DNA of 64,000 nt from Xaviernesmea oryzae (GTDB taxonomy: Bacteria; Pseudomonadota; Alphaproteobacteria; Rhizobiales; Rhizobiaceae): positions 434,001-498,000 of the forward strand of contig NZ_FXAF01000011.1 of assembly GCF_900177415.1 (NCBI RefSeq). The letters are read 5' to 3'. Of the stretch, positions 1,753-35,533 are shown in pieces; positions within the stretch are counted from its first letter, which is position 1; each line of letters begins with the position of its first letter. The position numbers and the translations under genes are program-made. Under the pieces are notes generated by a model that saw nothing but the letters and a program-made list of their open reading frames with translations, searched no databases and was not told where the DNA came from.

Positions 1753-3426
<1,674 letters not shown>

Positions 3427-3464
3427 TTATCCGCTTCTAAAAAAACGGCTGTGGAATCTTCTCA

Positions 3465-3495
3465 AAATAAAACCGGCAGGCTTTTGGCCTGCCGG
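3465..3495 (-). terminator. Rho-independent terminator after secG
   Basis: A perfect 9-bp stem CCGGCAGGC/GCCTGCCGG (3473-3495) with a 5-nt loop is followed on the minus strand by TTTTATTTT. It sits 24 bp past the secG stop codon and before pyrG, so it should end the tpiA/secG transcript. Confidence 0.9.
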
Positions 3496-33940: not shown

Positions 33941-34095
33941 CTGCCGCCCTCGCTGCTTGCATCCGACAAAAGGAAGATGGCGGCAAAAAGCATATTGTCA
34001 ACAACCGGATAGCTCAATCCGGCGCTATTGCCCGTGACGCCGGTTTTCCTGCTAGAACAATTGGCGTTGCGGGTCCAGCCCGCACCCTGAAATGG

Positions 34096-34128
34096 CCTGG
34101 AAAATCCCTGGAAAATCCCTGGAAAATC
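34096..34128. repeat. 11-bp perfect tandem repeat upstream of the PDF-like gene
   Basis: Three perfect copies of CCTGGAAAATC, ending 30 bp before the ATG at 34159. Confidence 0.85.
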
Positions 34129-34158
34129 CAAGTGCAAAAGACCGGAGGAAGTTCGAAA

Positions 34159-34650
34159 ATGACCGTCCGCACCATCCTGAAATATCCCGATCCGGGTCTC
34201 TCCGAACCTTGCGGACCGGTCGAGGCTTTCGACGCCGCCCTCGGCACCCTCGCCCACGATCTCCTCGATACGATGCGGGCGGCGCCGGGCGTCGGGATCA
34301 CCGCCGCCCATATCGGCGTCTTCACGCGCCTCGTGGTGCTGGAGCTCTCGAAGGAGACTGGGCCGCGCTTCTACGCGAACCCCGAAATCCTCTCGTTCTC
34401 GGCAGAGACCATGCGGCATATGGAGGGCAGCGTCTCCATGCCGGGAGCAACCGAGGAGGTCGAGCGGCCGCGAAAGATCCGCTTCCGCTACCAGGATTTC
34501 GGAGGCGCCTTTCACGAGGAGGACGCGGAAGGTTTTTATGCCGTCTGCATGCAGCACGAGATCGACCAGCTCGACGGCGTCTTCTGGCTGAAGCGGCTTT
34601 CCCGGCTCAGGCGCGACCGCCTGATCCGCAAATGGGAGAAGGGAAAATAG
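34159..34650 (+). CDS. Peptide-deformylase-like protein lacking metal ligands
   Basis: A 163-residue protein with the whole deformylase fold, but all three active-site motifs are altered. Motif I (GxGxAAxQ) is GVGITAAHIG, motif II (EGCLS) is MEGSVSMPG, so the Cys metal ligand is Ser, and motif III (HExxH) is HEIDQLDG, so the second His is Gln. Only one of the three expected metal ligands remains. Removal of the N-terminal formyl group is therefore unlikely; binding of nascent or formylated peptide is possible. The ATG at 34159 has GGAGG upstream. It is followed by two BON-domain genes on the same strand. Confidence 0.85.
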   Translation: MTVRTILKYPDPGLSEPCGPVEAFDAALGTLAHDLLDTMRAAPGVGITAAHIGVFTRLVVLELSKETGPRFYANPEILSFSAETMRHMEGSVSMPGATEEVERPRKIRFRYQDFGGAFHEEDAEGFYAVCMQHEIDQLDGVFWLKRLSRLRRDRLIRKWEKGK

Positions 34651-34716: not shown

Positions 34717-34974
34717 ATGAATGCAACCGCAGACAAGACCGCAGCCGAACTGGAGCGAAAAGTATCCGAACGCCTGGCAGAATTGCCGGACGTGGATGCC
34801 TCCCATATCGAACCGCATGCCGAGGGAACCAAGGTCATTCTCGAAGGTTCTGTCGATACCGTGTTCTCCGCCCGCAAGGCGGTCTTGAGCGCGGAAACCG
34901 TGGATGGCGTCCATGACGTCGAAAGCCATCTGACCCTTACGGGAAGCAAGGATGGCCCATCCGCGAGCCATTGA
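34717..34974 (+). CDS. BON-domain protein
   Basis: An 85-residue protein consisting of one BON domain (about residues 10-75). The alternating pattern VDASHIEPHAEGTKVILEG, SVDTVFSARKAV and VDGVHDVESHL matches the beta-alpha-beta units of BON domains, which bind phospholipids or other hydrophobic ligands. No signal peptide is visible. AAGGAGG lies before the ATG at 34717. The next gene also encodes a BON domain; they may be functionally linked stress proteins. Confidence 0.85.
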   Translation: MNATADKTAAELERKVSERLAELPDVDASHIEPHAEGTKVILEGSVDTVFSARKAVLSAETVDGVHDVESHLTLTGSKDGPSASH

Positions 34975-35035: not shown

Positions 35036-35533
35036 ATGCCAGCCAAGCGAAAGGTTGACGACATTTCCCGCGAGGAGGATTTCCGCGACTACGACGACCG
35101 CAATATCGACGAAGGCTGGCCCTATGACGATGCCTCGGGCGCCGGTGCGCGGCCGGTAGACAACGCTGCCTACGGCGAACCCGCCGCCAATTTCGACAGC
35201 GAGCGCAACCGCGGCTATCGCGTCGACGAAGCGGATTTCGACGGATTGGAAGAGCGCGTGGTCGACAGTGCCTTTCCCGGCACGGACGGGCTCGAGGAAT
35301 CCGACGACCTGGAGGAGCGCATCACCGATGCGATCGAGAACCTGGACGTCGTCCCCATGGATGCGATCGACGTGCATGTCGACGGCGACAAGGTGACGAT
35401 CGAGGGCGTCGTGGACGATGCCGCCGCCTCCCGCAAGATCGTTCGGCAGGTTCAGGACGTCCCGGGCGTGCGTGTGGTGATCAACAATCTCCGGCTTGCC
35501 GGCGTCGACAGCCGCATTCCCGACGACGACTAG
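35036..35533 (+). CDS. BON-domain protein with acidic N-terminal region
   Basis: A 165-residue acidic protein. The first 95 residues are disordered-looking and rich in Asp, Glu, Arg and Gly; the C-terminal BON domain (about 98-155) has MDAIDVHVDGDKVTIEGVV and the SRKIVRQVQDVPGVRVVINN pattern. It lies 61 bp after another BON gene and ends 4 bp into the convergent OsmC gene. A role in envelope stress or surface binding is inferred only from the domain. Confidence 0.85.
   Translation: MPAKRKVDDISREEDFRDYDDRNIDEGWPYDDASGAGARPVDNAAYGEPAANFDSERNRGYRVDEADFDGLEERVVDSAFPGTDGLEESDDLEERITDAIENLDVVPMDAIDVHVDGDKVTIEGVVDDAAASRKIVRQVQDVPGVRVVINNLRLAGVDSRIPDDD

Follow-up and report, generated by a model that had tools for sequence, protein, structure and literature searches.

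An accessory peptide deformylase paralogue of Alphaproteobacteria with a fixed alternative set of active-site residues

Peptide deformylase (PDF) is an essential, antibiotic-targeted enzyme built around a Cys-His-His metal site. The window, a stretch of 64 000 nucleotides of Xaviernesmea oryzae DNA, contains a gene for a PDF-like protein of 163 residues in which this site is altered. Its frame on the plus strand is intact, running from an ATG at 34159 to a stop codon ending at 34650 behind a good ribosome-binding site (GGAGG, 34144–34148), as the first-pass annotation of the locus had read it. The PF01327 match spans residues 4–152 (139.5 bits, cut-off 22.8) and profile positions 2–155 of 156, so that the whole domain is present and the protein belongs to the family. 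It also scores 261.2 bits with the NCBIfam equivalog NF009484 (PRK12846.1-5; curated cut-off 190), a threshold that four distant members of the altered group likewise pass (232.1–255.4 bits), whereas the canonical PDF of the same genome falls below the cut-off (178.4 bits). NF009484 separates the altered group but names its members plainly "peptide deformylase", a name that implies an active deformylase and is silent on the altered site. The features of the locus are as follows.

34144–34148, plus strand: ribosome-binding site GGAGG, 10 nt upstream of the ATG (read from the sequence).
34159–34650, plus strand: PDF-like gene, 163 aa, NF009484 group, with His51/Ser91/His133-Glu134/Gln137 (frame, profile matches and relatives).
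34288–34317, plus strand: motif I, residues 44–53 (GVGITAAHIG), His51 at 34309–34311 (His51 in 129/129 distinct sequences).
34423–34437, plus strand: motif II, residues 89–93 (EGSVS), Ser91 at 34429–34431 (Ser91 in 129/129).
34552–34578, plus strand: motif III, residues 132–140 (QHEIDQLDG), His133 at 34555–34557 and Gln137 at 34567–34569 (His133, Glu134 and Gln137 in 129/129).
34582–34587, plus strand: group-specific Phe142-Trp143, Leu-Phe in classical copies (alignment columns).
34597–34647, plus strand: C-terminal basic stretch, residues 147–163, corresponding to the helix by which E. coli PDF docks on the ribosome (residue alignment).

An mgtE-like gene lies upstream in divergent orientation in 83 of the 113 loci compared, and two BON-domain genes (34717–34974 and 35036–35533) follow the PDF-like gene in the window; a BON gene also follows it at one other locus (L048). 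No operon partner naming a function emerged from 15 fetched loci, at which the one neighbour considered belonged to unlike families (ASCH, Hsp70-like, BON, MerR, DeoR, NIPSNAP, YCII, EamA, TetR, methionine synthase and histidine kinase) or, in four cases, had no family match. Outside Rhizobiaceae, no conserved neighbourhood at the loci compared hints at oxidants or iron. Most of 20 aligned upstream regions share conserved intergenic blocks. One strongly conserved block sits between mgtE and the PDF-like gene (33984–34013), and its minus strand holds TTGACA (33996–34001 in plus-strand coordinates), likely the −35 element of mgtE on the other strand. Just upstream of the ribosome-binding site, at 34096–34129, the 11-bp unit CCTGGAAAATC is repeated three times head to tail, an array absent from 19 aligned relatives.

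All three active-site motifs depart from the classical pattern. Motif I reads GVGITAAH, with His51 in place of Gln; motif II reads EGSVS, with Ser91 in place of Cys; and motif III reads HEIDQ, with Gln137 in place of the second His of HExxH. The protein thus lacks the full set of residues by which a catalytic PDF (EC 3.5.1.88) is recognized, namely the motif I Gln, the Cys of EGCLS and both His of HExxH. It retains Glu134, the HExxH Glu that acts as the general base of PDF, and His133 as the sole classical metal ligand. The first-pass annotation had described the Ser and Gln replacements and the loss of the classical metal site with one of three ligands left, and both descriptions stand; in the Salmonella PDF, Cys90 is reportedly needed for activity, since C90S does not rescue growth and the wild type does (PMC7683392). 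The same annotation had read motif I as Ala-His for the usual Pro-Gln, of which only the His is a fixed change. Ala50 is unremarkable because position 50 varies, the commonest four residues being Ala (96), Pro (27), Cys (4) and Leu (1) among 129 altered sequences and Ile (17), Pro (6), Cys (1) and Val (1) among 26 classical ones. The Gln of motif I reportedly hydrogen-bonds the carbonyl oxygen of formyl-Met in the classical enzyme (PMC13131673). The His and Gln changes are reciprocal, with Gln turned to His in motif I and His turned to Gln in motif III.

Further positions set the altered group apart. Phe142 and Trp143 occur in 129/129 altered rows (imposed by the search pattern for those from a scan described below), whereas classical rows have Leu (26/26) and Phe (25/26) there. 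At the position of Arg97, a substrate and actinonin contact, the altered group mostly carries Thr (93), Ser (10), Asn (10) or Val (5 of 129, commonest residues only), and 23 of the 26 classical rows, including the canonical def of the same genome, carry Tyr. An arginine-to-tyrosine change in Vibrio Def2 has been linked with lower actinonin susceptibility (PMC12690207). Cys130 was considered as a residue that might restore the metal site and rejected, being present in 123/129 altered and likewise in 26/26 classical sequences; the matching second Cys of the Salmonella PDF reportedly binds no metal (PMC7683392). No solved structure of the altered group was evident among 60 of 80 PDB sequences, the best of the matches listed scoring 167.7 bits (1n5n).

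The combination His51/Ser91/His133-Glu134/Gln137 was identical, in open frames, at 164/164 loci representing 147 distinct sequences: 40/40 within the genus, 44/44 in further genera (40 of these loci belonging to other families) and 80/80 from a scan of genome contigs. The 80 scan loci were picked via the peptide pattern DQL[DE]G[IVL]FW, which imposes Gln137 and Trp143, so that only His51, Ser91, His133 and Glu134 are free observations there; 17 of their sequences are identical to ones obtained from other genomes. The count omits L002 and L173–L180 (duplicates), the plasmid records L267–L270, and L047, whose domain match is split by an insertion with the pieces carrying the His and the Ser/His-Glu/Gln; many mid-scoring matches in the class and third copies in some genomes also lie outside the motif counts. 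An alignment of 155 distinct rows resolved into 129 with the altered set and 26 with the classical Gln/Cys/His-Glu/His. Classical or extra copies had the classical set at 31/31 loci (28 distinct sequences, two genes having been fetched twice), as did 55/55 distinct viral PDFs, and no intermediate between the two sets was found among the sequences read. The Ser/Gln pattern whose conservation the first-pass annotation had proposed to check recurs at 164/164 loci, free of random motif changes, the Gln being imposed at the 80 scan loci.

Were the substitutions accidents of decay or mis-assembly, frameshifts, stops or random loss of motifs would be expected, and the 164 agreeing open loci with their single pattern lead us to reject decay and sequencing error. 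The one frameshifted relative read, a plasmid copy of Mesorhizobium huakuii, and a dN/dS above that of the canonical gene (below) speak for decay; the identical substitutions, a dN/dS of 0.20 and the single branch of the tree speak against it, refute it for the genus and leave it scarcely credible overall. The M. huakuii relative, on plasmid p_1 (L268, ~3001–3479), is unannotated and has a frameshift at motif I, with the other motifs in another frame; a two-piece match in Mesorhizobium sp. AR07 resembles it. Separately, a run of AEAGD-like units follows approximately residue 65 of the PDF-like protein in Tistrella mobilis pTM2 (L269, 3001–3585) and in L037, differing in copy number between the two, and is missing from the kin sequence L034.

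Across the 129 distinct altered sequences, whose pairwise identities reach as low as 40%, invariant columns number 20 of 161. They concentrate in the motifs (11/22 motif columns against 9/139 others), and mean entropy is 0.24 bits in motif columns compared with 1.29 bits elsewhere when positions 142–143 are excluded (p about 1e-8, a guide only since the rows are related). With invariant columns clustered in this way, no region of the protein is better preserved than the former active-site pocket. His133 and Glu134 are invariant in 129/129, and the loss of the HExxH His is as fixed as the gain of the motif I His, so that His and Gln have in effect been swapped between two motifs that line the site. 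Since Ser91, His51, His133 and Glu134 are all invariant and the change of Cys to Ser also takes away the usual metal ligand, one could conceive of a metal-free hydrolase acting on N-terminal acyl groups, with Ser91 as the nucleophile, His51 or His133 as the base and Glu134 as the third member. To our knowledge, a Ser-nucleophile hydrolase of this kind has no precedent in PF01327, and this reading of the sequences appears very unlikely.

An unrooted tree combined 56 altered with 26 classical sequences, two of the latter being long-branch rows; its bootstrap values were unsettled, and it contained neither type 3 nor non-proteobacterial PDFs. In it, all altered sequences fell to the same side of one branch (100/99; 200/200 bootstrap trees). 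A single origin of the altered group would be the simple reading. Pairwise dN/dS (Nei-Gojobori, domain-trimmed genes) had a median of 0.20 for the altered gene (30 of the 40 genus genomes; range 0.08–0.38, 326/435 pairs usable) and 0.076 for the canonical gene (11 genomes, 55/55 pairs). The altered copy is constrained by purifying selection, though less than the canonical copy, relative to which its roughly 2.7-fold higher dN/dS marks it as relaxed. With 164/164 open loci and a fixed motif, the view of the first-pass annotation that the gene is selected rather than decaying is well founded.

Every one of the 40 genus genomes searched, that of the window included, has the altered gene. Across the class its distribution is patchy: 14/385 sampled alphaproteobacterial genomes, and 0/14 control genomes, passed the NF009484 cut-off, so that the copy is dispensable for most. 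Within the order, profile matches above 210 bits occurred in 28/199 genomes, all 28 with the full altered set, and a phylum-level sample gave matches at E up to 1e-58 in 18/299 genomes, all of them in the order of X. oryzae. Carriers include Neorhizobium, Rhizobium and Allorhizobium (among the matches listed), Aminobacter, Tistrella and Sinorhizobium meliloti, in which the gene has an mgtE/MerR neighbourhood. In an association study of S. meliloti, COG0242 (peptide deformylase) is one of the functions linked with competition and nodule coinfection, the copy being unspecified in the passage concerned (PMC8407117). The group is not rare, at least 575 of at least 590 pattern-matched stretches in a scan of bacterial genomes encoding relatives of the PDF-like protein. 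A phage origin was also considered and rejected: the patterns EGS[VL]SMPG or C[LI][QM]HEID led to 160 viral loci confirmed as relatives, and the best 80 of these included no altered member, with a best identity of 38%. The altered PDF is, in sum, an accessory paralogue of Alphaproteobacteria with a fixed alternative active-site set.

Carriers do not appear to depend on this copy alone. The genome of the window has one other PF01327 match (C5:776263), which has the classical motifs and is 41% identical to the PDF-like protein. A Formyl_trans_N match, presumably fmt, lies 818 bp beyond the end of the domain match of this classical copy; the five Formyl_trans_N matches in this genome are at C5:1682575, C5:24824, C10:138954, C5:777536 and, a weak one, at C1:534043–534321. 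A further PDF match was present in 40/40 genus genomes, 10/10 other carriers listed and 28/28 carriers within the order (>210 bits), its type being read for the fetched copies only. In one genus genome (G016; L296, C1:2079600–2080500) the classical def is split between two frames and the altered copy is open, so that the latter is the sole open PDF frame of that genome; the assembly is rated 91% complete, and the split is likely a sequencing error. The altered protein might be no more than an ordinary deformylase, active as its name says, the classical motifs not being strictly required; this would agree with the NF009484 name and with a report that 7.1% of bacterial reference genomes have no PDF carrying the exact updated motifs (PMC12690207). 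Since the changes strike the metal ligands, which 28 distinct classical and 55 distinct viral PDFs all keep, and since the carriers counted have another PDF match, we consider this improbable.

Residue numbers of the PDF-like protein are those of E. coli PDF plus one, from its match to 1bs4, which we take to be the E. coli enzyme (residues 3–161 on 2–160). The ribosome docking of E. coli PDF, on uL22 and 23S rRNA, involves L149, K150, R153, K157, K160 and R163 (PMC12690207). The equivalents of the first five of these residues are kept in the altered group: Leu at L149 (126/129), Lys or Arg at K150 (129/129), Arg at R153 (128/129, with one Lys), and Lys or Arg at K157 (128/129) and K160 (129/129). 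Classical alphaproteobacterial copies have Met at the R153 position in 14/26 cases, a change that in Vibrio Def2 likely breaks the ribosome contact according to its authors (PMC12690207). The retained docking residues make it likely, as far as residue conservation can tell, that the PDF-like protein docks at the ribosome. Counting along 10qm_a, presumably E. coli uL22, the uL22 of X. oryzae has a Glu at the position of E52, the Glu contacted by R153.

The altered group poses the question of whether the site has been rebuilt from other residues or the fold recruited as a nascent-chain sensor; that the same three residues are exchanged alike in the second PDF copy of many soil and root bacteria suggests that the site was rebuilt or given a new binding task, and that the gene is not dying. 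Ribosome docking would suit a non-catalytic pseudoenzyme that sits at the tunnel exit, binds formylated N-termini there, delays or competes with canonical PDF and so regulates deformylation. Two of the three classical ligands are gone in every member read, the carriers counted have another PDF match, and the Cys90 requirement in Salmonella (PMC7683392) points the same way. So do the accessory type 3 PDFs of Staphylococcus aureus and Streptococcus pneumoniae, reported to be inactive (PMC12690207), and the formaldehyde resistance of Methylobacterium extorquens, in which reduced PDF activity can be beneficial (PMC13131673). However, activity is reported for the type 3 PDFs of Trypanosoma brucei, whose motifs are altered (PMC12690207), and a pure binder would have no obvious need for the invariant Glu134 and His133 or for the reciprocal His/Gln exchange. 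A regulatory binder is a real possibility, which we place slightly behind a rewired site. The first-pass annotation had gone further in arguing for a non-catalytic role, a conclusion that the invariance of Glu134 and His133 (129/129), the best-kept motif columns and the gain of an invariant His51 do not sustain. It had itself named a Cys and a His elsewhere that restore the metal site as the case against its reading, and the match between the lost His137 and the gained His51 comes close to this.

We favour, at somewhat below an even chance, a rewired and possibly catalytic site. The protein would dock at the ribosomal tunnel exit like PDF, given its kept docking residues, and nascent N-termini would be held in the old PDF pocket. 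There, His51 may replace the lost HExxH His, either as a metal ligand or as a metal-free acid/base; the polar function once served by the motif I Gln could pass to Gln137, with Glu134 remaining the general base. The protein would most likely still carry out chemistry on formylated or otherwise acylated N-termini, be it slowly, on special substrates, or under oxidants, nitric oxide or iron shortage. In the Salmonella PDF, NO nitrosylates Cys90 (PMC7683392), and because Ser91 is not S-nitrosylatable, a rewired enzyme could work where the Cys-Fe enzyme fails.

Such a rewired site is consistent with a set fixed at 164/164 loci free of intermediates while classical and viral PDFs keep theirs, with the single tree branch (100/99), a dN/dS of 0.20 and a pocket that is the most conserved region. 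The invariance of Glu134 and His133, the reciprocity of His and Gln, the retained docking residues and the uL22 Glu (its position by counting) also fit. Against it stand the Cys90 requirement of the classical enzyme (PMC7683392), the mostly Thr, Ser or Asn residues at the Arg97 position, a dN/dS ~2.7x that of the canonical gene, the further PDF match in the carriers counted, the lack, outside Rhizobiaceae, of a conserved neighbourhood that hints at oxidants or iron, and carriage by only 14/385 class genomes; that His51 would reach a metal is an inference. The conservation matches the expectation for a rewired site, and it is also compatible with a pocket retuned for formyl-Met or another N-terminus. 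More specifically, with the second HExxH His moved to motif I and Cys turned to Ser, the protein might be a thiol-free, NO- and oxidant-resistant, ribosome-docked deformylase or N-terminal deacylase working beside the Cys-Fe enzyme, which we regard as possible though less likely than not. If true, such an enzyme would be at work in many Alphaproteobacteria under the annotation of plain peptide deformylase.

Rhizobial "peptide deformylase-like" entries without the catalytic residues exist in UniProt. With type 3 PDFs (archaeal, trypanosomatid and the accessory ones of S. aureus and S. pneumoniae), the altered group has in common substitutions in the conserved motifs. The substitutions in motifs I and II that characterize type 3 PDFs are found in the PDF-like protein, a likeness by description. 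Several type 3 PDFs are reported to have weak or no activity (PMC12690207, PMC5591237). They are described by their motif I and II substitutions, and the passages concerned make no mention of His and Gln being reciprocally exchanged, in fixed form, between motifs I and III; nor was such an exchange found described in the literature searched, which covered few subscription journals, some sources in part, and is weak evidence of absence. Compared with classical type 1 PDFs (PF01327; TIGR00079), the altered group is alike in whole-domain homology, length and motif placement, and both have the Glu and first His of HExxH and the C-terminal basic stretch. In contrast to these enzymes, it has His in motif I, Ser in motif II and Gln in motif III, together with Phe142-Trp143 and, at the Arg97 position, mostly Thr, Ser or Asn where classical copies have Tyr.
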